NCBI RefSeq assembly: GCF_019173455.1
Contig: NZ_JADPQH010000002.1
Span: 1 to 64,000 of the forward strand
Source of the DNA: Nesterenkonia sp. Act20
GTDB lineage: Bacteria > Actinomycetota > Actinomycetes > Actinomycetales > Micrococcaceae
Direction of reading: 5' to 3'
DNA length: 64,000 nucleotides
In this document: piece by piece, positions 10,347 to 28,484 of the stretch
Numbering within the stretch: the first letter of the stretch is position 1
Layout of the letters: each line of letters starts with the position of its first letter
Notes under the pieces: model-generated
What the model was told of the DNA's origin: nothing
Databases searched by the model: none
The model's input: only the letters and a program-made list of their open reading frames with translations
Translations under genes and position numbers: made by a program

Positions 10347-10387
10347 AGCGGATCTCCTTGAAGAACGGAATTTTGGCTCGGGAACAC

Positions 10388-10420: not shown

Positions 10421-10510
10421 GAGATCGGTGAGAGGGACTCGCTGTCAGGCTATCCGTTCCATGACGATCACGGGGGTGCTGGCGGTTCGGGCTCAGATAG
10501 ACTTGCGGCC

Positions 10511-11490: not shown

Positions 11491-11491
11491 C

Positions 11492-12466
11492 TCAGCGCGT
11501 CCCGGCCCGGACGAGCCGCTCGGTCTCGGCATCGGCAAGCCCGGACTCCACCAGCAGCCAGGCCATCAGCGCCTTCTGCGCATGCAGTCGATTCTCAGCC
11601 TCGTCCCACACCACCGACTGGGGGCCGTCGAGGACCTCGGCGCTGATCTCCACCCCACGGTAGGCCGGCAGGCAGTGCAGGACGACGGCGCCGGGTGCGG
11701 CCTGTGCCATGGCCGCGGCATCCACCCGGTACTCACCGAAGAGCTGAAGCCGGGCCTCCTTCTCCTGCTCCTGGCCCATTGAGATCCAGGTGTCGGTGGC
11801 GACCACCTCGGCTCCGCGCAGCGCTTCGGCAGGGTCGCTGGTGATCAGCACGCTGCCGCCGGTCTGCGCGGCGCGCGCACGGGCAGCCTCGACGATGCGC
11901 GGCTCCGGCAGGTAATCCTGGGGTCCGGCGATGCGGACGTCCATGCCGGCGTTGACCCCGGCGAGGAGATAGGAGTTGGCCATGTTGTTGGCCGCGTCGC
12001 CGAGGTAGGCGAGCGAGCGGCCCTGCGTGGTGCCGAGCTGTTCCCGCACGGTGAGCAGATCGGCGAGCAGCTGGCACGGGTGGTAGTCGTCGGAGAGCGC
12101 GTTGATCACGGGGACGCTGCTGTAGGCGGCCATCTCCTTGAGTCCGGACTGCGCGTAGGTGCGCCAGATGATCAGGCTGACCATCCGGTCCAGCACCCGG
12201 GCCGTGTCGGCGATGGTCTCCTTGTGCCCGAGCTGGGACTCTCCGGGATTGACCACCAGCGGGGAGCCGCCCAGGGCGGAGATTCCCGCGGCGAAGGAGA
12301 ACCGGGTACGCGTGGAGGTCTTGTCGAAGAACACCGCGGCGGTCTGAGGTCCCGCCAGCGGTTTGATGGCGTAGGGGTCTGCCTTCATCGTGGCGGCGAG
12401 GGTGAGCACCTGATCCAGCTCAGCCGGGCTGAGGTCGAGATCGGTGAGGAAATGGCGGATTCTCAT
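11492..12466 (-). CDS. argF: Ornithine carbamoyltransferase
   Basis: Makes citrulline from ornithine and carbamoyl phosphate. The 324-residue protein has the carbamoyl-phosphate loop KTSTRTRFSF, the HPCQ motif (YHPCQLLAD) and the ornithine-binding HCLPAYRG. It overlaps argD by 4 nt (ATGA), and argR begins 1 nt after its stop, indicating one transcript. Biosynthetic (ArgF) rather than catabolic use is inferred from the cluster. Confidence 0.97.
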   Translation of the reverse strand: MRIRHFLTDLDLSPAELDQVLTLAATMKADPYAIKPLAGPQTAAVFFDKTSTRTRFSFAAGISALGGSPLVVNPGESQLGHKETIADTARVLDRMVSLIIWRTYAQSGLKEMAAYSSVPVINALSDDYHPCQLLADLLTVREQLGTTQGRSLAYLGDAANNMANSYLLAGVNAGMDVRIAGPQDYLPEPRIVEAARARAAQTGGSVLITSDPAEALRGAEVVATDTWISMGQEQEKEARLQLFGEYRVDAAAMAQAAPGAVVLHCLPAYRGVEISAEVLDGPQSVVWDEAENRLHAQKALMAWLLVESGLADAETERLVRAGTR

Positions 12467-13731
12467 GAGGTGCTCCTGCGGTGGATCTCGGGAAGGGCGT
12501 CGATGAAGCGCTGGATCTGCTCGGTGGTGATGATCAGCGGAGGGGCCAGGCGCAGCGTGGTCGGGCCGGTCGCGTTGATGATGAACCCGGCCACCAGGGC
12601 GGCGGCCACCATGGCAGGCGCCGGTGCGCCGCGTGCGCCGGAGGAGGTGCTACGGCCCGAGGGGCTGCTGGCGTCAGTGCTGCCATCAGGTTCGGTGGCG
12701 ATCTCGATGCCGATCAGCAGGCCGTGGGCGCGCACCTCGGTGACGAAGTCCAGGGCCTCGAGCCGCTGCTGGGCATACCTGCTGACGTGGCGCACGTGGG
12801 CGAGAAGATCCTGGGATTCGATCACCTCCAACGTGGCCAGTGCGGCCGCGGTGGCGGCGGGGTTTCCGCCGAAGGTGGTGCCGTGCTGTCCCGGGTTGAG
12901 CAATGAGCTGGTGTGCTCGCCGAAGGTCAGCATCGCACCGATGGGGAATCCACCGCCGAGCCCCTTGGCGAGCGTCATCGCATCCGGGATCACCGGAGCG
13001 CTCTGCTCCGGGGCGGAGGCGAACCAGGTGCCGGTGCGTCCGATGCCGGTCTGGACCTCGTCGAGGATCAGCAGTGCCCCGGCGGCCCGGGTGATTTCTC
13101 GGGCCTGCTCCAGGTAGCCGACCGGGTGCCCGCGCACGCCGGCCTCCCCCTGCACGGGTTCGATGATGACGGCCGCCACGGTCTCATCCACCGCAGCCCG
13201 CAGCGCCTCGACGTCTCCTGCCGGGACCCATTCAACCCCTCCGGCAAGCGGCTCGAAGGGCTCACGGTAGCTGGGCTTATGGGTCATCGCCAGCGCGCCC
13301 ATGGTCCGCCCGTGGAAGCCGTGCTCCAGCGCGATGATGCGTGGCCTGGATTCGCCCCCGTGCCGGCGAGCAATTTTGAAGGCTGCCTCGTTGGCCTCGG
13401 TGCCGGAGTTGGCGAAGAAGGCCTTGGAGCCCGACGGCGCGTGGGCCAGCTCCAGGAGCTTCTCGGCCAGTGCGATCTGGGTGGGGCTGGTGAAGAAGTT
13501 GGAGATGTGCCCCAGCGTGTTCAGCTGTTCCGAGACGGCACTGGTGAGCATCGGGTGCGCATGGCCCAGCGCGTTGACCGCGATCCCTGCCAGCAGGTCC
13601 AGGTACTCGCGCCCATCGGCGTCCCAGACGGTGACTCCGGAGCCGCGGACCAGCACCTTCTGCGGGGTGCCGAAGACCCCCAACAGAGAACCGGTGTACC
13701 GGGTGAGCAGCTCTTCGCCGTGGCCGCTCAT
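12463..13731 (-). CDS. argD: Acetylornithine aminotransferase
   Basis: PLP-dependent class III aminotransferase making N-acetylornithine. Visible motifs are [28 protein letters not shown] and the PLP lysine in [16 protein letters not shown]. At 422 residues it is about 20 longer than usual: residues ~349-370 are a Ser/Gly/Ala-rich insertion ([20 protein letters not shown]) in the small C-terminal domain, just before the conserved [15 protein letters not shown]-coupled both to argB upstream and to argF downstream. Confidence 0.96.
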
Positions 13732-14672
13732 GCGCTCTCCTCATCGGGCACGATCTGCGTGCCGACGCCCTCGGTGGTGACGATCTCCAGCAGCATCGAA
13801 TGCGGTTTGCGGCCGTCGACCACGTGGGCGCGCGGCACGCCGGACTCCACGGCCTTCAGTGCGGCGGTCATCTTCGGGATCATGCCGGACTCGAGGCTGG
13901 GCAGCATCGCTCGCAGGTCGCTCGCGCTGAGCGAGGAGATCAGCGAGGACTTATCGGGCCAGTTCGCGTACAGGCCCTCCACATCGGTGAGCATCACCAG
14001 CTTCGCTGCTCCCAGGGCGGAGGCGACGGCGGCGGCCGCAAGGTCGGCGTTGACGTTGAGCACCTCGCCGGTGGGCTGGGCATCAGGCTGGTCCGAGTCG
14101 AACTCCGGGGCGATGGTGGAGATGACGGGGATGCGGCCGGCCGCCAGCAGGTCCTTGATCGCATCCGGGTTCACTCCGGTGACCTCTCCGACCAGGCCCA
14201 GGTCCACGGTCTCCCCGTCCACCTCGACGCTGGTCCGCACGGCCTGCAGCAGAGCGGCATCCTCCCCGGAGAGTCCCACCGCGTAGGGTCCGTGGCTGTT
14301 GATCAGCCCGATCAGCTGGCGTCCGACCTGCCCGGTGAGCACCATGCGGACCACGTCCATGGCCTCCGGGGTGGTCACCCGCTGGCCGGCGCGGAACTCG
14401 GACTCGATGCCCAGGGTCTGCAGCATCGCGTTGATCTGCGGTCCCCCGCCATGGACGACCACCGGGTTGACGCCCACGTGGCGCAGGAACACCACGTCCT
14501 CGGCGAAGGCGCGGCGCAGCTCATCGTTGACCATGGCGTTGCCGCCGTACTTGATCACGATGGTCTGGCCGGCGAACTTCTGGATCCACGGCAGGGCCTC
14601 GACCAGGACGGCGGCCTTGTCACCGGCAGCGCTGAGGCTTCCGGCGTCGCGGGGTTTCAGGGTGGATGTCAT
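13728..14672 (-). CDS. argB: Acetylglutamate kinase
   Basis: Phosphorylates N-acetylglutamate, usually the arginine-feedback step. The 314-residue protein has the amino-acid-kinase motifs IKYGGNAM and [10 protein letters not shown], and [16 protein letters not shown] with [10 protein letters not shown]. The start ATG is at 14672, 74 nt after argJ; the stop overlaps the argD start by 4 nt. Confidence 0.97.
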
Positions 14673-14746
14673 CGGGTCCTCTGCGGGGTGTGATGCTGCG
14701 TGCTGAGCTGCCGCGAAATGGGCGGCTGCGTACTGGGCTGAACGGG

Positions 14747-15946
14747 TCAGGTGGAGTAGGCGGAGTTCTCGTGGACGTAGTCATGAGTCAGGTCATTGGT
14801 CAGGATCGTGGCCTCCCGATCTCCTGATTTGAGGTCGATGACCACCTTCACGTGTCGACCGCTGAGGTCCACCAGGGCGCGATCCTCACCGATCCCCCCG
14901 GCCCGGCAGATCCAGACGCCGTTGACGGCCACGTCGATGGTGCTGGGATCGAAGTCCACATCGGTGGTGCCGACTGCGGAGAGGATCCGGCCCCAGTTGG
15001 GGTCCTGTCCGAAGATCGCGGTCTTGAAGAGGTTGGATCGCGCCACAGAGCGTCCGGCGGTCTCGGCCTGCTCCTCGGTGGCCGCATGGATCGTGGAGAT
15101 CGCGATCTCGTGGTGTGCGCCCTCCGCGTCAGCGATGAGCTGGCTCGCGAGGTCCTGGCACACCTGGTTCAGCGCTGTCTGAAACTCCTCCAGGTCCACG
15201 CCTGAGGGGTCGGCGTCCGGGTGCGCGCCGGAGGCCATGGCGATCACGGTGTCGTTGGTGGACATGCAGCCGTCGGAGTCTGCCCGGTTGAAGCTGATCC
15301 GCACGGCTTCGCGCAGGGCGGCGTCAAGGTCAGGCTGGGAGATCACGGCGTCGGTGGTGACCACGGAGAGCATCGTGGCCATGCCGGGGGCGAGCATTCC
15401 CGCACCCTTGGCCATGCCGCCCACGGTGAAGCCGGCGCCGTCGGCGGTGGCGACCTTCATCACCGAGTCCGTGGTCATGATCGCTTGAGCAGCCTGGTGC
15501 CCCGCGGTCTCGTGGGGGTCGAGCTGGGCCACCGCCGTGTCGATGCCGCCCAGCAGCGCGGGCATGTCCAGCCGCTCACCGATGAGTCCTGTGGAGCAGA
15601 CGAGCACGTCCCCGGCGGAGACATCGGCGCCGCCGGCCTGCAGCTTCTCCGCCACCACCTCGGCGGTCTGATGCGTATCGGCGAAGCCCGGCGCTCCGGT
15701 GCATGCATTGGCGCCGCCAGAGTTCAGCACGACGGCGTCGGCCCGGCCGTCGACGATTACCTGCTGGGACCACAGCACCGGTGCTGCGGCGACCCGGTTG
15801 GTGGTGAAGACTGCCGCTGCATGCTTATCGGGTCCTTCATTGCGCACCACCGCGACGTCGCGGGGCAGGCTGCCGTCGGCGGCGGCAGATTTGAGCCCGG
15901 CGGCGACTCCGGCGGCGGTGAATCCTCGGGCGGCCGTGACACTCAT
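14747..15946 (-). CDS. argJ: Glutamate N-acetyltransferase / amino-acid acetyltransferase
   Basis: Recycles the acetyl group from N-acetylornithine to glutamate. The 399-residue precursor has the self-cleavage region [20 protein letters not shown], where cleavage before the Thr after ATML-like sequence gives two chains in this family, and C-terminal [16 protein letters not shown]. It overlaps argC by 4 nt (ATGA). A 74-nt gap separates it from argB, the only real gap in the operon. Confidence 0.96.
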
Positions 15947-16974
15947 GGGGTGACTCCCAACAGGTTGAGCCCGGTGGTCTCGTCGAGGCCCAGGGCGATG
16001 TTCATGGATTGCACGGCGCCGCCCGCCGTGCCCTTGGTCAGGTTGTCAGCGGCGGAGACGATGACCGCTCGCCCGGCGTGTGAGTCGACGGCCAGCTGCA
16101 GGGTGACGTGGTTGGAGCCGACGACCTGCTTGGTGACCGGCCACTGGCCTTCGGGGAGCAGGTGGACGAAGGGCTCGGCGTCGTATTGCTGGTGATAGGC
16201 GGCGCGCAGCTGCGCCTCGGTGGTGCCGGGGGCGAGCTTGGCCGTGGAGGTCGCCAGGATCCCGCGCGACATCGGCGCCAGGGTCGGGGTGAACGAGATC
16301 TGCACCGGGGCTCCCGCGGCATGACCGAGTCCCTGTTCGATCTCGGGGGTGTGTCGGTGCACTCCCCCGACCCCGTAGGGACTCATACCGCCGATGACCT
16401 CGGCGCTGAGCAGGTGCGGCTTCAAGGACTTGCCCGCACCAGAGGTGCCGGTGGCCGCGACGATGACGATGTCGGTGGGCTCCACCAGACCTGCCGCCAG
16501 CGCAGGGGCCAGTCCGAGCATGATCGTGGTCGGGTAGCAGCCGGGCACGGCGATCCGCCGGGCACCGGCGAGCTTGGCCCGCTGACCCGGCAGCTCGGGG
16601 AGTCCATAGGGCCAGGTGCCCTGATGGGCCGAGCCGTAGAACTGCTCCCAGGCGGAGGCTGATTCCAGCCGGTGATCCGCCGCGGCATCGATGACGATGG
16701 TGTCCTCGCCCAGCTGCGCCGCGATCTCGGCCGAGGCGCCGTGCGGAAGCGCGAGGAACACGACGTCGTGACCAGCGAGGTTCTCCGCGGTCGTCTCGCT
16801 GAGCACCCGATCGGCCAGCGGGATCAGCTGCGGCTGGAGCGCTCCCAGTCGCTCCCCAGCGCTGGAATGCGCGGTGACGGCGCCGATCTCCACCTCAGGG
16901 TGGCCAGCCAGCAGTCGCAGAACTTCTCCCCCGGCATAGCCGGAGGCGCCGGAGACGGCGATCTTATAGGTCAT
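15943..16974 (-). CDS. argC: N-acetyl-gamma-glutamyl-phosphate reductase
   Basis: NADPH-dependent reduction of acetylglutamyl phosphate. The 343-residue protein has the Rossmann start [16 protein letters not shown] and the catalytic cysteine in [11 protein letters not shown]. Start ATG at 16974; the long upstream open frame runs through the promoter and into the opposite gene and is rejected. First gene of argCJBDFR, with an ARG-box-like site 30-50 bp upstream. Confidence 0.96.
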
Positions 16975-17003
16975 GCTCAGCAGTCTAATCGGATATATGC
17001 GGC

Positions 17004-17023
17004 TTATCCAATATTTATGCAAT
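17004..17023. promoter_or_regulatory. Candidate ARG box upstream of argC
   Basis: The minus strand reads TTGCATAAATATTGGATAA, an AT-rich ArgR-type palindrome-like site 30 bp before the argC ATG in otherwise GC-rich DNA. It resembles the element before argG (shared TGCATAAA). The location between argC and the divergent oxidoreductase gene fits repression by the argR product. Confidence 0.55.
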
Positions 17024-17077
17024 ACGCTGGCAAGGGAACTTCGTCCATGCAGGCCTGTGTTGGGTACGCTTGCCGCC

Positions 17078-18085
17078 ATGAATGAACAGAGCGTTTTCCC
17101 AGAGGATCTGCCGGACAGGGCACGAGTGGTGCACGCCGCGCAGGCCGGGGGGACAGAGGTTCTCGTCCCGGCCGAGGTGGCCATGCCTGAGCCCGGCCCC
17201 CACCAGGTGCTGGTGGAGACCGCCGCCGCGGGCGTGAACTTCCTCGAGACCTACCAGCGCAGCGGCGTCTACCCGATGGAGTACCCCTTCACCCCTGGCA
17301 CCGAGGCCACCGGCACGGTGCTTGCCGTCGGTGAGGCGGTGGAGAGCCTCTCCGCAGGCCAGCGCGTGACCACCATGGAGGCAGCCAGCGGCACCTATGC
17401 CTCGCATTTCCTGGTCGACTCCTCCAAGGCGGTCGCGGTGCCCGACGAGGTCACCGATGAGCAGGCTGCCGCGCTGCCGCTGCAGGGCATCACCGCCCAC
17501 TACCTGATGAACTCCACCTACCGGGTCGCCCCCGGTCAGACCGTGTTGACTCACGCCGGAGCCGGCGGGGTGGGGCAGATCCTGACGCAGCTGCTCAAAG
17601 CCAAGGGAGCCCGGGTCATCACCACCTGCTCCACCGAGGAGAAGGCTCAGATCGCCCAGGCCGCGGGCGCCGACTACGTGCTCGGCTACGAGAACTTCGC
17701 CGAGAAGGTCCACGAGATCACCAAGGGCGAGGGTGTGGCCGCAGTGTTCGACGGCGTGGGCAAGGATACGTACCTGGGCTCGCTGGAGTCTTTGGCGGTG
17801 CGCGGCACCTTTGTGCTCTACGGCGGCGCCTCGGGCCAGGTGCCTCCGTTGGATCCACAGGATCTGAACCGACGGGGAGGCCTCTACCTCACTCGACCCT
17901 CCACGCACTGGTACCTGCGCAACGCCGAGGAGCGCTCCTGGCGCTACGCCGAGCTCTTCGACTCGCTCACCGGCGGGGACCTGAAGCTCAGCATCGGTGC
18001 CAGCTACTCGCTGGAAGACGCCGGCCGGGCGCACGATGACCTGGAGAACCGGCGCACCACCGGCAAGCTGCTGCTCACCCCCTGA
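17078..18085 (+). CDS. Quinone oxidoreductase-like zinc-free MDR
   Basis: The 335-residue protein belongs to the QOR branch of medium-chain dehydrogenases: [15 protein letters not shown], the NADPH fold [23 protein letters not shown]-type segment (residues ~150-170), and [16 protein letters not shown]. No structural zinc-lobe cysteines are seen. It would reduce quinones or other enones with NADPH. The ATG at 17078 is preferred over an earlier in-frame ATG, which sits inside the argC control region. Divergent from argC and convergent with nagB. Confidence 0.88.
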
Positions 18086-18117: not shown

Positions 18118-18900
18118 TCAGAGGCCCTGCCAGGCCGGCTTCGCGGCGTAGGTCTGCCGGTAGTAGTCGGCGAGCTGAAGTCGTGACGCCGCGGCTTCGT
18201 CGACGAGCACCGTCGCGTGGGGGTGCAGCTGCATCACCGTGGCGGGCCACAGAGCCGAGATGGGCCCCTCCACGAGCTGATGCACCGCTTCGGCCTTGTG
18301 CCTCCCGCTGGCGAGGAGAACCAGGTGCCGCGCTTCGGATATGGTCCCGAGCCCCTGCGTCACACAGTGCACCGGGACCTGGTCGACGTCGCCGTCGAAG
18401 AACCGCGCATTGTCTGAGCGCGTCTGCGGAGCAAGCGACTTGATCCGAGTGCGCGAGCTCAGCGATGAACCCGGCTCGTTGAAGCCGATGTGGCCATCGG
18501 TTCCGATACCGAGGAGCTGGAGATCCACTCCCCCGGCCTCGGCAATAGCCTGCTCGTACTCCGCGCAGGCGGCTGGGATGTCGGCCGCGAGCCCGTCAGG
18601 GCCGTGGACCCGCTCAGCGTTCCAGTGCACTCGATCCACCAGCTCCTCCGCGATCACATTGCGATACCGCTGCGGGTGATCGGCGGGGAGCCCCACATAC
18701 TCGTCCAGCATGAACCCCTGGGCCCGCGCGAAGGACAACCCGCGCTGCTCATGCCGATGAATCAGCTCTCCGTAGACCGCCAGCGGACTCGAGCCGGTGG
18801 CCAGTCCGAGGGTGGAGTCGGCCTCACGACGCAGCAGCTTCTCTATCGCGTCGGCGGCGAGCCTGGCCTGTTGGTCGACTGGGGCAATGATGACCTCCAT
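18118..18900 (-). CDS. nagB: Glucosamine-6-phosphate deaminase
   Basis: Converts glucosamine-6-phosphate to fructose-6-phosphate and ammonia, the entry into glycolysis. The 260-residue protein (NagB usually 240-270) has LGLATGSSPLAVYGEL, FMLDEYVGLPADHPQRYRN, and the active-site loop GIGTDGHIGFNEPGSSL. The codons before the chosen ATG (18900) are TTG and GTG, and the GTG at 18903 has a better-spaced AAGGA; the difference is one residue. It is the last gene of the amino-sugar operon, 53 bp after the dehydrogenase gene. Confidence 0.94.
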   Translation of the reverse strand: MEVIIAPVDQQARLAADAIEKLLRREADSTLGLATGSSPLAVYGELIHRHEQRGLSFARAQGFMLDEYVGLPADHPQRYRNVIAEELVDRVHWNAERVHGPDGLAADIPAACAEYEQAIAEAGGVDLQLLGIGTDGHIGFNEPGSSLSSRTRIKSLAPQTRSDNARFFDGDVDQVPVHCVTQGLGTISEARHLVLLASGRHKAEAVHQLVEGPISALWPATVMQLHPHATVLVDEAAASRLQLADYYRQTYAAKPAWQGL

Positions 18901-18953
18901 CACCAATCACGTCCTTCTCTCGTTTCGGATCTGCGGCTTCAAAGTCGTCTCGT

Positions 18954-21842
18954 TCAGCGTCCTGCCGAAGCGCTTCGTTCAGTTCTTCCCGCGGCGACGT
19001 CGGCGGCGACCTCCAGCACATGACGGTAGGTGCGCCCGGTGGCACGGGTCATGGCGATCTCGCACGCCCTGTTGGACGATGCGTGCACCACAGCGTCGAT
19101 CTGCTGGACTTCGCGTGCCTCGGCGGCTGTCGCGGAGGCGGTCAGCTCGGGATGCAGCATTCCGCGGTCTCCGGCGAACCCGCAGCAGGCCCAGTCATCA
19201 GGCACGTGCACTCGGTGCGCCACTGCCCGTGCAACACGGAGCAGATCTGCTTCCCCACCAGCCTTCGATGTGGAGCAGGTGGGGTGCAGCGTCAGGGACC
19301 CGACGCGTTGCCCCGGCTCGATCTCCAGACGGGGCAGCACATGCTCCGCCACGAAACTGACGGCGTCGATGACTCGGCCGGCTCGCGGATCCCCCGCCGC
19401 GCCGGCGGCAGCCATGATCGATGCCACACCTTCTGCGCAGGAGCTTGCGTCCACGACGACGGGCACAAGACCCTCGCCCCGATCATCGAGACGTCTCCTG
19501 GTTCGATCCACGGCGTCGAGAACCTGCTCGGCCATCGCCTCATGACCCTCGGCGAGACCTTTGGAGGACCACGGGGTGCCGCAGCACAGCGCATCGATCC
19601 GCTCCGGCATCACCATACTCAGACCCACGATTCCGCACAGCTCGGCGACTGAGGCCTGTGCCCCACGTGATCCATTCGGGGCGGCGAACATCGCACCCTG
19701 ACAGCTCGGCAGAAATATGGCTGCCACGGGGTGCCCGGCGTCCCCGTCATCGCTCGCGCGGCTGCGGCGCCGTCCGCCGGCAGGCAGGTCCGATGTCCAC
19801 AGTGGCACCGTCTCTGCTCCCAGCAGCGAGCGTGCGGAGGCGTTCGGCCAGGCGATCGCAGCGTCCGGCATGCGCGAGGCGGCGTCAAGCCCGCGACCGG
19901 CGGCCTGCGTCACGGCTGACCACCGCGTCGCAGCAAGCTTCCCCAGGCGCTGCTGGGCGGGGCCTCTGCTCTCCTCGCGCAGCCGCTTGACCAGTGCACC
20001 GGTGTCGATGCCGACGGGGCATGCGGTCGCGCACATGCCATCGGCGGCACAGGTCTGAAGACTGTCGTACTCCTGCTGCGAATCCAGCTCGGCGACAAGC
20101 GTTCGGTCCCCGCGAGCCAGCGCACGCTCGCGCTCCCGGCGCACAACGATCCGCTGCCGAGGGGTGAGCGTGAGATCCCGGCTGGGACAGACAGGCTCGC
20201 AGTAGCCACACTCGACGCAACGATCCACTTCAGCATCGACTCGGTCCACCGGCTTGAGGTGATGCAGATGCGCCTGGTCATCCGCAGTGAGCACCACGCC
20301 GGGATTGAGGATCCCCGATGGATCACAGGCTGACTTGATCCTGTGGAGGACCTGAACCAGGTCCGGGGAATATTGACGATCGATGAACGGCGCCATCGCC
20401 CGTCCCGTGCCGTGCTCCGCCTTGAGGTTTCCGCCCTGACGAAGAACCAGCTCCACGAGATCCTCGGTGAAGGCGGCCAATCGCTCCAGCGCCGCGGGGT
20501 CTTCGGTGTCCTCCGTCAGCATGAAGTGGATATTGCCGTCCTTGGCATGACCGAAGATCACGGGATCCACATATCCGTGGTCCGCCAGCAGCACGGACAG
20601 CTCCTCGCAGGTACGGGCGAGGCGCTGAACAGGCACCACCACGTCCTCCAGGAGAGCCATCGTCCCGGGCGGGCGTGCCCCTGCGACCGCCGCGTAGAGT
20701 CCCTTGCGGACCGCCCACAGCTGCGCGCGACGACTCGCATCACGAGTCAGCTCCACCGGATGCGCCGTCGGGGCCCGGTCCAGGCTCGAGGCCACGTGTG
20801 CGAGATGCTGACCAAGTTCGTCCGCTGAATCGGCACGGTACTCGACGAGGATCGCGGCGTGCGTCTCTACCGTGAGATCCGCGATGACTGCGGGGACGTC
20901 GGGGCTTCGACTCGCCACCTTCAAAGAGGTGGCGTCCATCAGCTCCAGGGCCTTGGCCCCGGTGCTGACCAGTTCGGGCAGGGCGCGAGCCGCGACGTCG
21001 AGCGAGTCGAAGACCATGAGTCCCGTCGCGCAATAGGAGTGGACGGGCACGGTGCGGAACACCGCTTCGGCCACGAAGCCCAGGGTCCCCTCGGAACCGA
21101 TCATCAGCTGCAGAAGCATCTGGACCGGATCGTCATAGAGGCTGAGGGCGTCGAGGGAGTATCCCATCGTGTTCTTCATCGAGAATCGTTCAGCGATCTC
21201 GGCCATGGCGGACGGATCTGCTCGAACCTCATCCCTGAGCGCTTCCAGTTCGCTGACGAGTCCAGGTTCCTCCGCACGAAGAGTCTCCAGGGCGTCGGCT
21301 CTGGAGGTGTCCACGACTGTCCCGGAGGGCAGCACGAGCGTCATCGACTCCAGGGTCTTGGCACTGTTGTGCTCGATCCCCGCCGCCATGCCCGAAGAGT
21401 TGTTCGCGATCACCCCTCCCACGGTGCACGCCGCCTCGCTCGCTGGATCAGGGCCCAGCGCTCGACCATGGCGAGCCAGGCGGATGTTGACTGCGCGAAG
21501 CGTGGCACCTGGCTGAACCCGGACACGGCGTCCCTCATCCAGGACCTCGATCGCGCGAAAGCCTCGCCTGGTATCGACCTGGATGCCCGCGCCGATGGAC
21601 TGTCCGGAGAGACTCGTCCCTCCCGAGCGGAAGGTCACCGAGGTGTCATGCTTGGCCGCCAGGTGAAGCACGGCACTCACCGCGGCGATGTCCTCCGCGA
21701 TGACGACCACCTGCGGAATCATGAGGTAGTGCGAGGCATCGTGAGCACGTGCATGCAGGTCGATCGCGCGGTCAAGCACGTTTTCGGCACCCAGCTCACG
21801 GCGAAGCTCATCGATCAAGGGTGTGGTGGTCTTCAGCTCCAT
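18954..21842 (-). CDS. FAD-linked oxidase fused to iron-sulfur subunit (D-lactate dehydrogenase-type)
   Basis: The 962-residue protein joins a GlcD-like and a GlcF-like half. Residues ~35-220 are the FAD-binding_4 domain (TFRSGGTSLSGQSIGAGIQV, TVGGVIANNSSGM), followed by an FAD-oxidase C domain (GHAKDGNIHF, KAEHGTGRAMAPFI). From ~540 come two 4Fe-4S motifs, CVECGYCEPVCP and CAADGMCATACP, then two CCG-type segments (ALCCGTPWSSKG, WACCGFAGDRGM). This is the layout of Dld-II D-lactate dehydrogenases and of YdiJ D-2-hydroxyglutarate dehydrogenase. D-lactate is favoured here because MurQ, encoded two genes upstream, releases D-lactate. It overlaps the kinase gene by 10 nt. Membrane-associated electron delivery to quinone is inferred. 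Confidence 0.85.
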   Translation of the reverse strand: MELKTTTPLIDELRRELGAENVLDRAIDLHARAHDASHYLMIPQVVVIAEDIAAVSAVLHLAAKHDTSVTFRSGGTSLSGQSIGAGIQVDTRRGFRAIEVLDEGRRVRVQPGATLRAVNIRLARHGRALGPDPASEAACTVGGVIANNSSGMAAGIEHNSAKTLESMTLVLPSGTVVDTSRADALETLRAEEPGLVSELEALRDEVRADPSAMAEIAERFSMKNTMGYSLDALSLYDDPVQMLLQLMIGSEGTLGFVAEAVFRTVPVHSYCATGLMVFDSLDVAARALPELVSTGAKALELMDATSLKVASRSPDVPAVIADLTVETHAAILVEYRADSADELGQHLAHVASSLDRAPTAHPVELTRDASRRAQLWAVRKGLYAAVAGARPPGTMALLEDVVVPVQRLARTCEELSVLLADHGYVDPVIFGHAKDGNIHFMLTEDTEDPAALERLAAFTEDLVELVLRQGGNLKAEHGTGRAMAPFIDRQYSPDLVQVLHRIKSACDPSGILNPGVVLTADDQAHLHHLKPVDRVDAEVDRCVECGYCEPVCPSRDLTLTPRQRIVVRRERERALARGDRTLVAELDSQQEYDSLQTCAADGMCATACPVGIDTGALVKRLREESRGPAQQRLGKLAATRWSAVTQAAGRGLDAASRMPDAAIAWPNASARSLLGAETVPLWTSDLPAGGRRRSRASDDGDAGHPVAAIFLPSCQGAMFAAPNGSRGAQASVAELCGIVGLSMVMPERIDALCCGTPWSSKGLAEGHEAMAEQVLDAVDRTRRRLDDRGEGLVPVVVDASSCAEGVASIMAAAGAAGDPRAGRVIDAVSFVAEHVLPRLEIEPGQRVGSLTLHPTCSTSKAGGEADLLRVARAVAHRVHVPDDWACCGFAGDRGMLHPELTASATAAEAREVQQIDAVVHASSNRACEIAMTRATGRTYRHVLEVAADVAAGRTERSASAGR

Positions 21843-22831
21843 ATGAACCCCTCCTGGGGACTCAGTACGCCCCGTCCATGGAGTCGCGCCAGGGACAGCG
21901 AGCCTTCCAGCGGGTCTCCCAAGGCTTCGCCGATCGAGACGTCCGCACGCTGGTTCGCGACTTCTTCGGCAAAGGCGTCACTGAGCAGCGGGCCGGCACC
22001 CACAAGTCCACCGGTGAGCACCAGCTGTGCGGGGCGGTCCTCCCCCAGCGCCGCGAGACCGCTCTTCGCAGCCTCCCGGCCCGCCGCGCGGACCAAAGCA
22101 CGGGCGGTCTCGTCTCCGCGGGCGGCGACTGCCACCACCTCGGCGGCGAACTCGGCGAGGACGCCTGCCCGATCGTCGCGCGTGTAGAGCTGAGCAGGCC
22201 AGGATTCGGGCTCACCGAACCAGTGACGACCCGCCGTCAGCAGGGCGTGACCATGGGTCTCGAGGCCGTCGTGGGCCCGCATGGCCGCTTCCAGGCCACA
22301 CCGACCCAGCCATGCCCCACCGCCACGATCGCCCAGAAGGTGTCCCCAGCCATCGACGCGACGCCACGCGTGTTCATCGCCCACCGCCTCTGCCATGCCA
22401 GGGTGGCTGATCGCGATGGCACCCGTGCCCAGCGCCACCACTGCTCCTCCTGCCTCCCCGAGCGCACCGAGATGCGCCGTGACCGCGTCGATGGCGATGG
22501 CGGTCTGCGTTCCGAGCTCGGCGCGCAGCTGCACTGCCAACTCTTGCGGGTCCTGCACCAGGGAAGCCAGTCCTGACGCCCCGATGCCGACTCCGCTCAG
22601 GCGCGAGGTCTCCTCCGGCCAGGAGGTCATGGCACGAGAGAGCATCTCGCGGATCACCTGCGGGGCAGTGGATCCGCCGGCGCGCACCTCGATTCGCGGC
22701 CCGTCCAGGACTCTTCGCAGGCCTCCGGCCAGAGGCCGCACTGCGAGACGGCTCCCCGAGCCTCCGAGGTCCAGCCCCACCAGGGACCCAGAGAGCGGCC
22801 CCTCCCGGGGATCTTCCACCTTGTGGATCAT
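21833..22831 (-). CDS. BadF/BcrA-type amino-sugar kinase (MurNAc/GlcNAc kinase)
   Basis: The 332-residue protein has the actin-fold phosphate-1 motif LVGLDLGGSGSRLAV, a central VVALGTGAIAI and GWGHLLGDRGGGAWLG, and adenosine-motif LVLTGGLVGAGPLL. These are features of the NagK-like BadF/BcrA/BcrD ATPases, which include clostridial MurK, able to phosphorylate MurNAc and GlcNAc. Coupled to murQ by ATGA and overlapping the dehydrogenase start by 10 nt. MurNAc kinase is the best guess because its product would be the MurQ substrate; a GlcNAc kinase feeding nagA is equally compatible with the sequence. Confidence 0.8.
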   Translation of the reverse strand: MIHKVEDPREGPLSGSLVGLDLGGSGSRLAVRPLAGGLRRVLDGPRIEVRAGGSTAPQVIREMLSRAMTSWPEETSRLSGVGIGASGLASLVQDPQELAVQLRAELGTQTAIAIDAVTAHLGALGEAGGAVVALGTGAIAISHPGMAEAVGDEHAWRRVDGWGHLLGDRGGGAWLGRCGLEAAMRAHDGLETHGHALLTAGRHWFGEPESWPAQLYTRDDRAGVLAEFAAEVVAVAARGDETARALVRAAGREAAKSGLAALGEDRPAQLVLTGGLVGAGPLLSDAFAEEVANQRADVSIGEALGDPLEGSLSLARLHGRGVLSPQEGFIWS

Positions 22832-23760
22832 GGACGGTTCACAGCATTTCTGGGGTCTCGGAGAGCCTCGCGCACGGAACCTGCATGCTTGTCCAGGAGC
22901 TCGGCCGCTTCCGCAACGGGCAGCTCCCCCAGCGCGGAGAGGATGCCCACCTTGAGGTCTCCTCCGGTTCTTTCGAGCAGCGCCCTGGCCTCGGGCTCAT
23001 CGAGATCGGCCGCTTCGCACAGGATGCGGGTTGTCCGCTCGCGGAGTTTCGCGTTGGTCGCCACCACCGAGACCATCAGGTTCTGCCAGGTGCGACCGAG
23101 CTCGATCATCAGCGCGGTGGAGAACCCATTGAGCACCAGCTTCTGTGCGGTGCCTGCTTTCATCCGGGTGGAGCCGGTGACGACCTCCGGACCGGTGTTC
23201 AAGAGAAGGTGCTGGTCCGCGTGGGCCGCCACTCGAGCATCCGGGTTGCTGGAGATCAGCACGGTGTACGCGCCAGCGCCCCGTGCCGCCTCCAGCGCAC
23301 CTGCCACGTATGGGGTGTTGCCGCTCGAGGCGATGCCGATCGCGAGGTCATCGGAGCTCAGCGTGCTCGCATCGGTGCGTCCAGAGTCGACCGAGTCTTC
23401 GGCATTCTCGACGGCTTCCACCAGGGCCTGCGATCCACCTGCGATATGTCCCACGACGCGGCCTGGTTCGAGATTGAAGGTGGGCATCAGTTCGCTGGCA
23501 TCGAGGACCCCCAGCCGACCCGAGGTCCCTGCCCCGAAGTAATGCACCGTCCCTCCACGGCGGAGCCGCCGTGCAGCCTCGTGCACCACGGGGGCAAGCT
23601 CGGGGAGCACCGCAGCGGCCGCGTCCACTGCCACACGATCTTCGGTGTTGAGCAGCTGCAGGACCTCCAGGGTGTCGAGGTCATCGAGGTTCATGCTGCG
23701 CGGATTGCGCTGCTCCGTCGGAGGCAGGGCACCGGTTGCGGAGGCCGAACTGGCGCTCAT
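22828..23760 (-). CDS. murQ: N-acetylmuramic acid 6-phosphate etherase
   Basis: Cleaves the lactyl ether of MurNAc-6-phosphate to GlcNAc-6-phosphate and D-lactate. The 310-residue protein (MurQ about 300) has the SIS domain with YFGAGTSGRLGVLDASELMP, containing the expected catalytic glutamate, GIASSGNTPYVAGAL, and the family signature GTAQKLVLNGFSTALMI followed by NLMVSVVATNAKL. The ATG at 23760 overlaps the symporter stop (ATGA). A longer frame extends into the symporter gene and is rejected. Confidence 0.96.
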   Translation of the reverse strand: MSASSASATGALPPTEQRNPRSMNLDDLDTLEVLQLLNTEDRVAVDAAAAVLPELAPVVHEAARRLRRGGTVHYFGAGTSGRLGVLDASELMPTFNLEPGRVVGHIAGGSQALVEAVENAEDSVDSGRTDASTLSSDDLAIGIASSGNTPYVAGALEAARGAGAYTVLISSNPDARVAAHADQHLLLNTGPEVVTGSTRMKAGTAQKLVLNGFSTALMIELGRTWQNLMVSVVATNAKLRERTTRILCEAADLDEPEARALLERTGGDLKVGILSALGELPVAEAAELLDKHAGSVREALRDPRNAVNRP

Positions 23761-25253
23761 CGCTGCATCTCCGTGAGCTGGACGGGCGCGGCGGGGGTGG
23801 AATGACGCAGCGAGAGCAGACCCCCGACGGCGAATGTCACCAGGACGCCCATCAGCGGGTACCACTGCCACGCCACCCAGACTTCTCCCACCACATACTT
23901 CTCCATCACGAAGAAGAACGCATTGACGGCGACCGCGAACACGAAGGCGATGTTCGCGTCAGCCGCGCGGGCCCGCTTGTTGATGATGCCGAACATGAAG
24001 GCCCCCAACAGTCCGCCGTAGGTGATTCCTGCGACCCCGAGGGCGAGGACGACGATGTTGCCTTCGTCGGAGCGGAACACCATCGCCGGAGCGATGAATG
24101 CGAGTCCCCAGCCGATGGTGGCCCAGCGGCCTGCGCGGAGGCCCTGCTCGTCGGTGAGAGGGGTCTTCTTCAGTCGCGCGTAGACGTCCGTGACCGTGGA
24201 GGAGGACAGCGCTGAGAGCGAGGAGGACAGTGTGGACATGGCGGCCGCCAGGATTCCGGCGAGCAGCAGTCCGGTGACGCCTGGTGGCAGACCCTCCACG
24301 ATGAACATCGGGAAGATCTCGTCATCGCGGGTCAGGCCCAGTGAATCTGGAGTCGCCTGATCGTAGTAGCCCCACAGCGCCAGTCCCACCAGCAGGAAGA
24401 TGGCGAACTGGAAGAGCACGATGACGCCGGAGACGATGATGGCCTTCTGTGCCTCCGCCTTGGTGCGGCAGGCCAGGAGTCGCTGGACGACGAGCTGGTC
24501 TGAACCGTGCGAGGCCATGGCGAAGACTGCGCCGCCCAGCAGCGATGCGATGAATGACCCGCTGGTGGAAATCGGGTTGCCCTCGAAGATGAACATGGTG
24601 AATTTGCCCGCGTCCGCGGCCTCTGTGAACCATCCCCCGCCGGTCGCGGAGGTGATCACGATGATGGAGAGGATGCCGCCACCGACGTAGAGGAACATCT
24701 GCGCCACATCGACCCAGACCACGGCCTTGATGCCACCGATGAACGTGTAGAGGATGGTGACCACTGCGAGCACCACGATGATCGTGAAGTAGTTCGCGTT
24801 GATGCCGATCCCGTCGAGGATGATCTTCAGTGGAATAGCCGCGGCCAGGACGCGGATGCCGTCTGCCAGGAGCCGTGTGATCAGAAATGTCACGCCGGCG
24901 GTGGTCTGCGTGCTCTGTCCGAAGCGCTTACCGAGGTAGGCGTAGGCGGTGACCATCTCGCCGTCGTAGTAGCGCGGCAGCATGAAGAACGCGACGACCA
25001 CGCGTCCCAGGATGTAGCCGAGTCCCAGCTGGAGATAGGAGATGTCTCCCAGGTAGCTCATGACGGGAATGCCGATCACGGTGAGCGCACTTGTCTCGGT
25101 CGCGACGACGGACAGACACACCGCCCACCACGGCAGGTTGCGGCCCCCGAGGAAGTAGTCCTTGAGTCCGGTCTGCCGACCGCTCAGTTTGATGCCCAGC
25201 CAGGCGGTGGCGGCGAGATACGCCACAATCACCAGAAGGTCTATGGTCTGCAC
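23757..25253 (-). CDS. Sodium:solute symporter family transporter (candidate MurNAc/anhMurNAc importer)
   Basis: The 498-residue polytopic membrane protein has the SSS (SLC5-like) signature: KDYFLGGRNLPWWAVCLSVV, VATETSALTVIGIP, GYILGRVVVAFFMLPRYYDG, and GVAGITYGGLLGAFMFGI late in the chain, with about 13 hydrophobic segments. SSS members carry sugars, amino acids, nucleosides or sialic acid with sodium. It lies between anmK (48 bp) and murQ (4-nt overlap), so its substrate is probably MurNAc, anhydro-MurNAc or a GlcNAc-containing disaccharide (inference from context). Confidence 0.88.
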   Translation of the reverse strand: MQTIDLLVIVAYLAATAWLGIKLSGRQTGLKDYFLGGRNLPWWAVCLSVVATETSALTVIGIPVMSYLGDISYLQLGLGYILGRVVVAFFMLPRYYDGEMVTAYAYLGKRFGQSTQTTAGVTFLITRLLADGIRVLAAAIPLKIILDGIGINANYFTIIVVLAVVTILYTFIGGIKAVVWVDVAQMFLYVGGGILSIIVITSATGGGWFTEAADAGKFTMFIFEGNPISTSGSFIASLLGGAVFAMASHGSDQLVVQRLLACRTKAEAQKAIIVSGVIVLFQFAIFLLVGLALWGYYDQATPDSLGLTRDDEIFPMFIVEGLPPGVTGLLLAGILAAAMSTLSSSLSALSSSTVTDVYARLKKTPLTDEQGLRAGRWATIGWGLAFIAPAMVFRSDEGNIVVLALGVAGITYGGLLGAFMFGIINKRARAADANIAFVFAVAVNAFFFVMEKYVVGEVWVAWQWYPLMGVLVTFAVGGLLSLRHSTPAAPVQLTEMQR

Positions 25254-25301
25254 GTGGTTCCTCTTTCCATCATCAAGGTGCTTCTTTCGATTGGTGTGGG
25301 G

Positions 25302-26486
25302 TCAGCTGGCGACATGGAGCCGTGCTGGTCCAGTGCGCAGCGGCGCCGGGAGTCGGAGCGGTTGCGCCCCTGGGGTGAACCGACCGGCGAGTGTCCCGTG
25401 GGCTGCTCCGGTGACACTTGGAATCGTCGCCGGCAGGCCGTGCCAGCTGAGCCAGCCCAGCAGGGCCATAAGGCACCCCTCCTTTGCCTCAGAGGGCAGG
25501 CCGAGCGCCTCATCGGTCGTGCTGACCGGAACCTCTGTGCCGAGTTCCGCACGCAGCTCCGACATCAGGACGGGGTTCCGCGTTCCACCTCCCGACACGG
25601 CGATCTCACTGACTCCCAGGGGCCGGCAGGCCTGCGCGACCGTGCGAGCGGTGAGTCGGGTCAGCGTTGCGATCACGTCGTAGGGGTCCAGTCCTGGATG
25701 ACGCGTGAGGTGGCGGTCCAGGTAGGTGCCGTGGAACAGCTCCTTGCCCGTGGACTTGGGAGCCGGGAGGGCGTAGTAGGGATCCGCCAGGAGATCTGCC
25801 AGCAGCGCCTCGTCGACCTCACCCCGGGCGGCCAGCTCACCGTCCCTATCGAAGGCTCTGGGGTCTCCGGTGATTCTGCGCGCCATGACGTCGATCAGGG
25901 CGTTGGCGGGCCCAGTGTCGAAGGCGACCGTGTCGCTGGTGGGTGAGACGACGGTGACGTTGGCGATGCCGCCCAGGTTGAGCATCGCCCGTGGCTGGTC
26001 TCCGCCGACCAGGAGCAGGTGGTCCAACATCCCTGCGAGCGGTGCGCCCTGACCTCCCGCGGCCACGTCGCGAGCCCGGAGGTCCGAGAGGACCGGCACC
26101 CCGAGTCTCTCTGCGATCCACGCCGGCTGACCGAGCTGCAGGGTCGACTCGACCGCGCCGTCGCGGACGTCGTGCCGGATGGTCTGCCCGTGCGATACGA
26201 CCAGCTCACACTCGAGACCTGTCTCCTCGGACACGGCGGCCACAGCCTCGGCGCAGAGCTGTCCAAGTCTGCGGTCCACGCTGCTCACGAGCGTGAGCGG
26301 CACCGGGTCAGGCTCCAAAAGGCGCAGGATGTCCAGAGCGAGGTCCGAGTCGAAGGGCACCTCCTGGAATGCGCGAAGGTCCATCCGCAGCTCGGGCTGA
26401 TCCGCCGTGCCCCCGAGGTGGAACTCCACCAGCGCGACGTCGAGCGCGTCGGCGGATGTCCCGGTCATCAGTCCTGCCACGATCAT
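25302..26486 (-). CDS. anmK: Anhydro-N-acetylmuramic acid kinase
   Basis: Opens the 1,6-anhydro ring of anhMurNAc and phosphorylates it to MurNAc-6-phosphate. The 394-residue protein begins GLMTGTSADALDVALVEF, has VSHGQTIRHDV, NLGGIANVTVV with FDTGPANALID, and ISGGGTRNPVLM-like AVSGGGTRNPVLMSEL. Length matches AnmK (about 370-390). ATGA-coupled to gntR upstream. Confidence 0.95.
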   Translation of the reverse strand: MIVAGLMTGTSADALDVALVEFHLGGTADQPELRMDLRAFQEVPFDSDLALDILRLLEPDPVPLTLVSSVDRRLGQLCAEAVAAVSEETGLECELVVSHGQTIRHDVRDGAVESTLQLGQPAWIAERLGVPVLSDLRARDVAAGGQGAPLAGMLDHLLLVGGDQPRAMLNLGGIANVTVVSPTSDTVAFDTGPANALIDVMARRITGDPRAFDRDGELAARGEVDEALLADLLADPYYALPAPKSTGKELFHGTYLDRHLTRHPGLDPYDVIATLTRLTARTVAQACRPLGVSEIAVSGGGTRNPVLMSELRAELGTEVPVSTTDEALGLPSEAKEGCLMALLGWLSWHGLPATIPSVTGAAHGTLAGRFTPGAQPLRLPAPLRTGPARLHVAS

Positions 26487-27205
26487 GAGATCTCCTCCAC
26501 AGTGTTCGCCGGCACGCTCAGTTCAGTCCGAATCTTGTAGCGGTCCCCGCGATAGAGAGAACGCACAAACTCGATGGGCTGCCCTTCGGGACCCCAGGAC
26601 GTTCGCTCGAACATCAAGGCCGGGGAATGCAGGGGCACGTTCAGGTCTTTTGCCTCGTCACTGTCCAGGACGGTGGGTTCGATGGTCTGGACGCTGCGCC
26701 GCACGCTGATGCCCAGTCGTTCGCGGAGCAGGTCGTAGAAGGAACGATCCTCCAGGTCGGCTGCGTGAAGATCAGGCATCAGGTGTCGTGGAACGTTGAG
26801 CTCCTCCACGGCGATGGGCTCGTCATCGGCCAGCCTCAGGCGCGTCACCCGGGTGATCTCAGCCGAAGGGTCGATGTTCAGCCGTCGACCGAAACGAGCC
26901 CCCGCCGGAAGCACCTCGAACGCCAGGGTCCGAGCACCTGGACGCAGTCCCCGTGCTCGCATGTCCTCTGAGAATGAGCTGGCGAGCAGCGGCTGGTCCA
27001 GCTTCGGGCCCAGCGCGAACACCCCGGCTCCGTGGCGACGACGCACGGCGCCACGTGCCACGAGCTCGTCGATCGCGCGCCGAAGGGTCATCCGGGACAC
27101 CCCGAGCTCTTGGGCGAGATCTCGCTCAGGGGGAAACGGGTCTCCCGCAGACATCTGGTCCAGGCGATCCAAGAGCTGGTTGCGCACATCGTGGTATTTG
27201 GTCAC
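26483..27205 (-). CDS. GntR family regulator, HutC/UTRA type
   Basis: The 240-residue protein has an N-terminal winged helix (FPPERDLAQELGVSRMTLRR, GAVRRRHGAGVFAL) and a C-terminal UTRA effector domain (EITRVTRLRLADDEPIAVEE, SFYDLLRERLGISV, EFVRSLYRGDRYKI). Relatives DasR and NagR sense GlcN-6-P or GlcNAc-6-P and control amino-sugar genes. As first gene of the operon and divergent from nagA, it is the likely local regulator. The GTG at 27205 lacks a clear Shine-Dalgarno, so a leaderless or weakly translated message is possible. Confidence 0.92.
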   Translation of the reverse strand: MTKYHDVRNQLLDRLDQMSAGDPFPPERDLAQELGVSRMTLRRAIDELVARGAVRRRHGAGVFALGPKLDQPLLASSFSEDMRARGLRPGARTLAFEVLPAGARFGRRLNIDPSAEITRVTRLRLADDEPIAVEELNVPRHLMPDLHAADLEDRSFYDLLRERLGISVRRSVQTIEPTVLDSDEAKDLNVPLHSPALMFERTSWGPEGQPIEFVRSLYRGDRYKIRTELSVPANTVEEIS

Positions 27206-27239
27206 GCCACTATTGAGACACAGCCCACTCTCAGAATCA

Positions 27240-27252
27240 AGACCACTGGACT
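27240..27252. promoter_or_regulatory. Candidate GntR-family operator between gntR and nagA
   Basis: AGACCACTGGACT is a near-palindrome (AGACCA-C-TGGACT, one mismatch) in the 112-bp divergent region. Its half-sites match the TGGTCT/AGACCA halves of DasR/NagR-type operators, though spacing and order differ. Confidence 0.35.
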
Positions 27253-27317
27253 AACTTTGTCTCTGCTGTGATGATGTGAGGAGTCACACCTGCGAGAACC
27301 ACCGCCCGGGAGGCCCG

Positions 27318-28484
27318 ATGAACCACGTGCTCTTTGCTGACGCTGCTCTGACTCCCGAAGGGACGCTGGGACCCTATTGGCTTCGCATCGTGGCCGGAAG
27401 GATCGTGGAGGCTGGGCACGGCAGACCCCCGCAGGCTCCCGACGAACACATCACAGACGCGGTGGTGGCCCCTGGCTTCGTCGATGTGCATGCCCATGGC
27501 GGCGGGGCGGCAGCCTTCACAGATGGCGCCGTCTCCGGAGAGAGAGCCCTGGTCGCTCATCGCCGAAGAGGCACCACCACCATGCTGGCCTCCCTGGTCA
27601 GCGCCCCGGTGTCCGTGCTCCTGGACCAGGCCGAAGAGCTGCGCCCCCTGGTGAAATCCGGCGAACTCGCCGGAGTGCATCTGGAAGGGCCGTGGCTGAG
27701 TCAGGAGCACCGAGGAGCCCATGAGGCCGAGGTGCTGACCTCCCCGACCCCCGAGGCGGTGTCCACACTGCTCGAACACTCAGCGCACGACCTGATCAGG
27801 TACGTGACGCTCGCGCCCGAGCGCGAGGGGGCGACGGAAGCGATCACCCGGCTGCGGGCCGCCGGGTTCACTCTGGGAGTCGGACACACCGGGGCAAGCT
27901 GCGGGCAGACGCGAGAAGCGATCGCCGCGGGGGCTACGGCGGCCACCCACCTGTTCAACGCCATGGGGGGTCTGCATCATCGAGAGCCCGGTCCGGCACT
28001 GGCCCTGTTGGAGGAGCCCACGGCTTTCCTGGAGCTGATCAGCGACGGCGTCCACCTGGACGCCGAGATGGTCCGCTTCGTCTGGGACTACGCGACGCGC
28101 AACGGCGGCCCCCAGCGCCCCGTCCTGGTGTCAGACGCCATGCCCGGAGCTGCCGCCCCGGACGGCAGGTACAGGCTTGGCCCCGTGGAGGTCGACGTCG
28201 TCGAGGGCGTCGCTCGACGAGTCACACCCGATGGAACGCTCGGCGCGATAGCCGGCTCGACCCTGACCCTCTCAGCTGCCGTGCGCGAGAGCATTCTGAG
28301 TGCGGGCATTGACCCGGCACGCGCGCTGATGGCTGCGAGCACCAACCCTGCCGCGATGATCGGGATCGACGACGCCGGCAGACTGCTCCCTGGGGGACGC
28401 GCGGATCTGGTGCTGCTGGACCCTGCCTGGAATGTGAGCCGGGTGATGCACCGCGGTCAGTGGATCGATGACGCTGAAGGCTGA
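27318..28484 (+). CDS. nagA: N-acetylglucosamine-6-phosphate deacetylase
   Basis: Deacetylates GlcNAc-6-P to GlcN-6-P for nagB. The 388-residue amidohydrolase has the metal site DVHAHGGGAAAF, LEGPWLSQEHRGAHEAE, GHTGASCGQ, THLFNAMGGLHHREPG and the catalytic aspartate in VLVSDAMPG. The ATG at 27318 has GGGAGG upstream; the earlier in-frame ATG at 27276 lies in the regulatory region. It is divergent from the rest of the locus, so the GntR product could control both sides. A strong hairpin follows. Confidence 0.95.
   Translation: MNHVLFADAALTPEGTLGPYWLRIVAGRIVEAGHGRPPQAPDEHITDAVVAPGFVDVHAHGGGAAAFTDGAVSGERALVAHRRRGTTTMLASLVSAPVSVLLDQAEELRPLVKSGELAGVHLEGPWLSQEHRGAHEAEVLTSPTPEAVSTLLEHSAHDLIRYVTLAPEREGATEAITRLRAAGFTLGVGHTGASCGQTREAIAAGATAATHLFNAMGGLHHREPGPALALLEEPTAFLELISDGVHLDAEMVRFVWDYATRNGGPQRPVLVSDAMPGAAAPDGRYRLGPVEVDVVEGVARRVTPDGTLGAIAGSTLTLSAAVRESILSAGIDPARALMAASTNPAAMIGIDDAGRLLPGGRADLVLLDPAWNVSRVMHRGQWIDDAEG

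Follow-up and report, generated by a model that had tools for sequence, protein, structure and literature searches.

The MurQ route of N-acetylmuramic acid (MurNAc) catabolism yields one D-lactate per MurNAc. In Tannerella forsythia, a MurNAc importer, a MurNAc kinase and MurQ are encoded in one operon, murTKQ (PMC5790795, available part), and a similar set of genes lies at positions 18,118–28,484 of the window examined here, which comprises the first 64,000 nucleotides of contig NZ_JADPQH010000002.1 of Nesterenkonia sp. Act20 (assembly GCF_019173455.1). The T. forsythia importer is assigned to the sodium symporter superfamily and, elsewhere in the available part of the same paper, to the major facilitator superfamily. 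Unlike the Act20 locus, the T. forsythia operon is described there with only murT, murK and murQ named, and neither anmK, nag genes, a GntR regulator gene nor a dehydrogenase gene appears in that part of the text (PMC5790795). T. forsythia is also a Gram-negative anaerobe, unlike the host of the window. The murR and murQ-murP-yfeW genes of Escherichia coli resemble the Act20 locus in that the MurQ etherase has a regulator and an importer of its own. Unlike the window, import through the E. coli phosphotransferase system (PTS) yields MurNAc 6-phosphate directly, and no kinase gene, nag gene or lactate dehydrogenase gene is annotated within the 10 kb inspected.

The Act20 locus encodes, in addition, a flavin adenine dinucleotide (FAD)/iron-sulfur (Fe-S) dehydrogenase that is predicted to oxidize the D-lactate. 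LldE of the Pseudomonas aeruginosa lldPDE operon likewise oxidizes D-lactate in aerobic growth but, as far as the accessible text of the source describes it, is cotranscribed with the lactate permease LldP and not with murQ (PMC6134097). Dld (Cg1027) of Corynebacterium glutamicum is, like the predicted window enzyme, an actinobacterial D-lactate dehydrogenase; it is quinone-dependent and, unlike the window enzyme, is classed in the consulted portion of its description as the membrane-binding type (PRK11183/pfam09330; PMC3022706). The window dehydrogenase scores 18 bits against PRK11183, for which the cut-off is 391. D-Lactate accumulated when engineered C. glutamicum was grown on MurNAc, and overexpression of dld was suggested in the available part of that report (PMC6165865). 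A survey of titles and abstract openings in the openly licensed PubMed Central literature found no description of a murQ-linked D-lactate dehydrogenase, an absence that carries little weight. The coupling of murQ to an Fe-S dehydrogenase of this type, which recurs in the order Actinomycetales, was not found in print.

A predicted operon for MurNAc and anhydroMurNAc catabolism

All eight genes of the locus were confirmed. The minus strand reads, from 27205 to 18118, gntR-anmK-SSF-murQ-BadF kinase-dehydrogenase-nagB, and nagA is divergent; the gene order that the first-pass annotation had claimed is borne out by gene positions and family matches. Scores below are in bits and are followed by the curated Pfam or NCBIfam cut-off. 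The minus-strand genes encode a GntR/UTRA regulator (gntR, 26483..27205; GntR 59.7, 27; UTRA 137.3, 23.8), the 1,6-anhydroMurNAc kinase AnmK (25302..26486; AnmK 497.3, 440), an SSF sodium:solute symporter (23757..25253; SSF 128.8, 22.8), the MurNAc 6-phosphate etherase MurQ (22828..23760; TIGR00274 306.8, 302), a BadF-type amino-sugar kinase (21833..22831; BcrAD_BadFG 52.7, 31.5), the dehydrogenase of 962 residues (18954..21842) and the glucosamine 6-phosphate deaminase NagB (18118..18906; NF001684 406.2, 326; TIGR00502 257.9, 236.9). The curated cut-offs are exceeded by NagB, MurQ, AnmK, SSF, the BadF kinase, GntR/UTRA and the FAD and Fe-S domains of the dehydrogenase. The nagA gene (27318..28484, plus strand; listed open reading frame opening at GTG 27276) was assigned by family match to N-acetylglucosamine (GlcNAc) 6-phosphate deacetylase, which is the top match of its protein but falls under the equivalog cut-off (TIGR00221 199.7 vs 225.65). 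The listed open reading frame of murQ opens at GTG 23871, and ATG 23760 was chosen as its start. With this start, overlaps of 4–10 nt occur at four of the six junctions between same-strand genes, as had been claimed for most of the genes: 4 nt each at gntR/anmK, SSF/murQ and murQ/kinase and 10 nt at kinase/dehydrogenase. The two remaining junctions, SSF/anmK and nagB/dehydrogenase, have gaps of 48 and 47 nt.

The locus is very likely an operon for catabolism of MurNAc and 1,6-anhydroMurNAc, derived from outside or from the cell's own wall turnover, that includes D-lactate oxidation and GntR/UTRA control. The SSF symporter would import MurNAc and anhydroMurNAc. AnmK would open and phosphorylate anhydroMurNAc, and the BadF-type kinase, a predicted MurNAc/GlcNAc 6-kinase resembling MurK, would phosphorylate MurNAc and probably GlcNAc. 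MurQ would then split MurNAc 6-phosphate into GlcNAc 6-phosphate and D-lactate; NagA and NagB would convert the former to fructose 6-phosphate, and the dehydrogenase would oxidize the intracellular D-lactate to pyruvate and pass the electrons to an acceptor. This route from MurNAc and anhydroMurNAc to fructose 6-phosphate and pyruvate, proposed in the first-pass annotation, fits every gene and has comparative support.

The arrangement was compared among the 80 highest-ranking of 577 relatives of the dehydrogenase that tblastn confirmed in named genomes, a set that leans to the kin of the query. The core anmK-SSF-murQ-kinase-dehydrogenase occurs in the same order in six of these 80 nearest named loci (L035–L040, from Isoptericola, Brachybacterium, Nesterenkonia and Paraoerskovia), with gntR at its head in five of the six and nagB behind it in two. 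The operon arrangement is not chance, because this core order recurs. The first-pass annotation had named beforehand a gene-order search in relatives, with uniqueness, together with lack of co-induction by amino sugars, as a refuting outcome; an order restricted to the Act20 genome is rejected, since the core is found in several families of the order. Within the genus of the window, a true murQ is present in three of seven sampled genomes (G000, G012 and G107), and G107 carries the full operon with proteins that are 82–99% identical. As a separate observation, contig 1 of genome G144 contains adjoining murQ fragments at 197979–199782, one with an internal stop, which suggests decayed or duplicated copies.

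MurQ shares 45.3% identity with its E. coli counterpart across 296 positions. Its E89 and E120 residues (numbered without the start Met) align with E83 and E114 of the E. coli enzyme, which we take to be the catalytic glutamates. A route to MurNAc 6-phosphate is present by family match, as AnmK and the BadF kinase both exceed their cut-offs; the nearest solved structure of AnmK is 3qbw. The structure matches of the BadF kinase are a probable GlcNAc kinase (1zc6, 50 bits) and a protein titled MurNAc/GlcNAc kinase (8zo3, 41 bits). The first of these, which is the nearest solved relative, would be expected if the operon served GlcNAc as much as MurNAc, with a GlcNAc-directed symporter and kinase and the MurNAc genes as a side line, and nagA and nagB also serve GlcNAc. 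The MurNAc-specific MurK of T. forsythia is described in the accessible part of its report with the residues S-P-L at a place where the window kinase, counted by eye, seemingly has D-G-W (PMC10465942). However, 8zo3 has G-G-W at that place. anmK and murQ are not known to act in GlcNAc use, which counts against an operon of such mixed purpose, and we regard it as unlikely, though not far-fetched.

Linkage of murQ and the dehydrogenase gene in the order

The linkage of murQ and the dehydrogenase gene was measured in 347 genomes of the order, with murQ called at E ≤ 1e-60 and the dehydrogenase at E ≤ 1e-100. murQ was present in 126 genomes, the dehydrogenase in 101 and both in 70. The two genes lie within 10 kb of each other in 16 of the 70 genomes, compared with 0.52 expected at random and a maximum of 7 in 200,000 simulations, and within 5 kb in 9 of the 70 (0.30 expected). 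The chance model places two genes at random and takes one over-limit dehydrogenase match per genome; second copies may be missed. The two genes also tend to occur in the same genomes (odds ratio 7.7, 347 genomes), and for this value, as for the linkage count, the kinship of the genomes means that they are not independent. A hand count in a family-level sample of 149 genomes (family cut-off for murQ, 1e-60 for the dehydrogenase) gave 17 genomes with both genes, 4 of them with a distance of at most 10 kb. In a class-level sample of 296 genomes, 46 contain both genes; 38 of these are outside the order, 9 with both on one contig. The statistical support for coupling of this type of Fe-S dehydrogenase to murQ in the order is strong, and the coupling takes several forms.

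Among the 80 named loci, murQ is found within 10 kb of the dehydrogenase in 12, an LldP/GlcA-family permease in 18, a LutB homologue without murQ or permease in 1 and none of the three in 34, and the flank is too short in 15. murQ and the permease never occur together (0 of 80 vs 2.7 expected from 12 × 18 / 80), numbers that are too small to prove mutual exclusion. In Azospirillum, a homologue with 38.3% identity follows an annotated L-lactate permease and precedes lut-type genes, and a relative on a Streptomyces plasmid (54.5%) has neither permease nor murQ annotated nearby. The importers beside murQ vary and include SSF (window), SBP_bac_1 ABC (L121 and L127), SBP_bac_5 ABC (L123 and L132) and MurP-like PTS (L144) proteins.

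Three neighborhoods deserve separate description. In L144, a class-level locus (genome G536, contig 22, 6877–14285), an RpiR/MurR-like regulator, the dehydrogenase, murQ and a PTS IIBC protein are encoded in this order on one strand; the top NCBIfam match of the PTS protein is MurP (342.5; cut-off 516), and G536 has a second murQ match elsewhere. L126 (genome G308, 5135–15376) combines a weak BadF-kinase match, murQ, a GH3 protein, a NamZ exo-muramidase, a GNAT protein, an RpiR regulator and the dehydrogenase in one neighborhood. L034 of Nesterenkonia sedimenti (7590–17160) contains a dehydrogenase of the window clade together with an ROK protein, an AnmK homologue, a GH3 protein and a BadF kinase, and no murQ match lies in the 22.8 kb stretch covered.

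A maximum-likelihood tree was built from 96 dehydrogenases, including L144 and leaving aside two long-branch outgroup rows. Eighty rows were scored; the counts exclude L130 and 15 named loci with flanks too short to judge, and the tree excludes L115, L118, L119, L120 and L131, which were judged duplicates of named loci. Over the 80 scored rows, murQ linkage requires a minimum of 8 changes of state, compared with 19–25 (mean 22.7) in 60 shuffles; the linked state is therefore clustered but not single. The window belongs to a clade of 14 rows (support 100) from Micrococcaceae, Promicromonosporaceae, Cellulomonadaceae and Dermabacteraceae, which also holds genomes coded f1, f8 and f19, some possibly of the same families. 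Besides the window it has 13 rows: 11 with murQ linkage, among them L121, the truncated L033 and the unlinked L034. The second linked group, L126–L129 with L144, forms one clade. The nearest dehydrogenases are those of G107 and then of Nesterenkonia.

These clades also bear on whether the linkage arose by repeated coupling or goes back to a single cluster that was inherited or transferred. The window-type dehydrogenases group in a single, well-supported clade with members from four or more named families, a pattern that either transfer or common descent could produce, and the L126–L129 and L144 group is likewise a single clade; other murQ-linked dehydrogenases, however, fall outside both groups and have other gene orders and importers. 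This counter-case is not strong, as the trees are quick, the linked rows several kilobases apart (L042, L047, L077, L108 and L123) may be loose neighbors and gain of murQ linkage is indistinguishable from loss on such trees. We consider a single inherited or transferred cluster quite unlikely. The evidence leans slightly toward D-lactate oxidation as a regular, overlooked arm of MurNAc catabolism in the order, with the Fe-S dehydrogenase drawn beside murQ several times together with the importer of the lineage. If so, one regulated unit would send the sugar to glycolysis and the lactate electrons to respiration. Natural operons with a D-lactate step would offer a genetic test of whether this by-product is burden or fuel, and would serve as ready-made parts for growth on peptidoglycan waste. 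Through the murQ linkage, genome data also offer a way to assign a substrate to a dehydrogenase family with only a domain-based name; annotated plasmid records label it only as FAD-binding and (Fe-S)-binding domain-containing protein.

The FAD/Fe-S dehydrogenase and its predicted substrate

The dehydrogenase combines FAD-oxidase_C (184.4; cut-off 21.2), FAD_binding_4 (116.8; 26.4) and 4Fe-4S dicluster (Fer4_8, 41.7; 27) domains with a weak CCG match (24.4; 20.6) in which no single stretch passes. FAD_binding_4, FAD-oxidase_C, a Fer4 dicluster and CCG in one chain are what we take to be the defining set of the LldE/Dld-II type, and the full set, with CCG weak, is found in this one chain. P. aeruginosa LldE presumably has the same FAD/Fe-S architecture. 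The window protein is placed by its domain set as a predicted FAD/Fe-S enzyme of LldE/Dld-II architecture and was compared with the Azospirillum lactate-locus homologue. Fifteen cysteines from C542 to C927 are shared by all 95 actinobacterial rows. The dehydrogenase stays below the cut-off of every NCBIfam model; the top matches are YdiJ (202.4; 1350) and then GlcD (190.4; 567.9). When the substrate half alone is compared with solved structures, LDHD ranks first (2.8e-25), followed by glycolate oxidase, LctD and D2HGDH.

The active site of mouse LDHD comprises a catalytic Arg, a metal-binding His/His/Glu set and a base His; its activity requires R347, H398, H405, E442 and H443, and its side-chain pocket is hydrophobic, as described in the available part of the structural report (PMC10589216). 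The corresponding pocket positions given there are T390, K401 and N443 in D2HGDH and Y351 in GlcD (PMC10589216). R379, H432, H439, E476 and H477 of the window dehydrogenase match the catalytic five of mouse LDHD and are present in all 95 actinobacterial rows. These residues do not set the substrate, because the same ones occur in YdiJ and GlcD. The pocket of the window enzyme is hydrophobic and is formed by A396 (94 of 95 rows), L398 (95 of 95) and M441 (83 Met and 12 Leu); A396 and L398 were placed by counting back from a shared Asp in the alignments. At the three pocket positions, YdiJ carries Pro, Ala and Arg, and human D2HGDH has Lys and Asn at those of L398 and M441. Such a pocket fits D-lactate and speaks against dicarboxylic hydroxy acids. 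A YdiJ (D-2-hydroxyglutarate) function was rejected on the score of 202.4 against 1350 and on M441, where YdiJ has Arg; a GlcD function was rejected on its sub-cut-off score and on A396, which replaces the pocket-narrowing Tyr351 of GlcD. The Act20 genome (97% complete) encodes two FAD-oxidase_C proteins in total and no PF02652 lactate permease, other lactate transporters not being excluded, and MurQ is therefore the evident internal source of D-lactate for the dehydrogenase.

Several observations weigh against a D-lactate arm of this operon. Three of the 16 linked pairs lie near the distance limit (8,866, 9,944 and 9,961 bp). In 54 of the 70 genomes with both genes, the two are not within 10 kb, though many are on different contigs. 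This count agrees with the earlier statement that recycling clusters usually leave the D-lactate side unlinked; for the order, that statement needs qualification, as the link recurs there. Outside the order, murQ and the dehydrogenase gene are close in 1 of 38 genomes, compared with 16 of 70 inside, so the linkage is mainly a feature of the order. The operon of G012 (locus L134), from the same genus, lacks the dehydrogenase gene, with the nagB and kinase matches 41 bp apart, and this genome gives no other dehydrogenase match at 1e-60. The dehydrogenase is therefore an optional part and its step not obligatory. Loss in G012 is the simpler reading, because nagB follows the dehydrogenase gene in the window, G107, L037, L040 and L117, and G012 offers a natural comparison strain. 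The nearest solved relative of the full chain is glycolate oxidase (9qgz, 1.5e-33), with LDHD second (5.5e-32), and the residue pattern would also fit other D-2-hydroxy acids whose side chains are small and hydrophobic. A dehydrogenase acting mainly on another 2-hydroxy acid (glycolate, D-2-hydroxyglutarate or D-malate), with an incidental operon position, would accord with the G012 operon, the glycolate oxidase match and the YdiJ and GlcD top ranks, but is very improbable given that the latter two lie far under their cut-offs, that the second-carboxylate positions K401 and N443 of D2HGDH are L398 and M441 here, that identity is 23.5% to YdiJ and 38.3% to the Azospirillum homologue, that the substrate half matches LDHD best and that linkage to murQ and lactate permeases is repeated.

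Regulator, predicted importer and possible source of the sugars

The gntR product carries GntR DNA-binding and UTRA ligand domains and is of the HutC type. A conserved site, TAGTCCAGTGGTCTTGAT, lies between gntR and nagA (27236..27253, minus strand) and contains a near-palindromic core, GTCCANTGGTC; it is the predicted operator. The core stands 46–47 nt ahead of the start of the gntR match in all nine loci with gntR among the 13 loci inspected. A longer pattern that contains the core, TAGTCCANTGGTCTTGAT, occurs once in the window with zero mismatches (0.01 expected at up to three mismatches). It occurs twice in the whole genome at up to three mismatches, as does a reversed control pattern; of the two genomic occurrences, only that at 27236..27253 has no mismatch, and the other has three. 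The GntR/UTRA protein would bind this intergenic site and switch both directions together, and it is likely a dedicated local regulator of gntR–nagB and perhaps also of nagA.

The nearest solved relative of the SSF protein is 5nv9, titled putative sodium:solute symporter (172.4 bits), which we take to be a sialic acid transporter. The SSF symporter is the predicted importer of MurNAc and anhydroMurNAc. The statement in the first-pass annotation that NagZ is missing holds for the cluster, and two GH3 matches are present elsewhere in the Act20 genome. One of them, a NagZ-like protein of 607 residues (L141; contig 2, 619299–620267) encoded ∼555 kb away on the contig of the window, has a lipoprotein-like start by eye and scores 136.1 against PRK05337 β-N-acetylhexosaminidase, under the cut-off of 207. 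It is a candidate external β-N-acetylglucosaminidase. With such a protein, MurNAc could be released outside the cell, which agrees with the free sugars supposed as input in the first-pass annotation.

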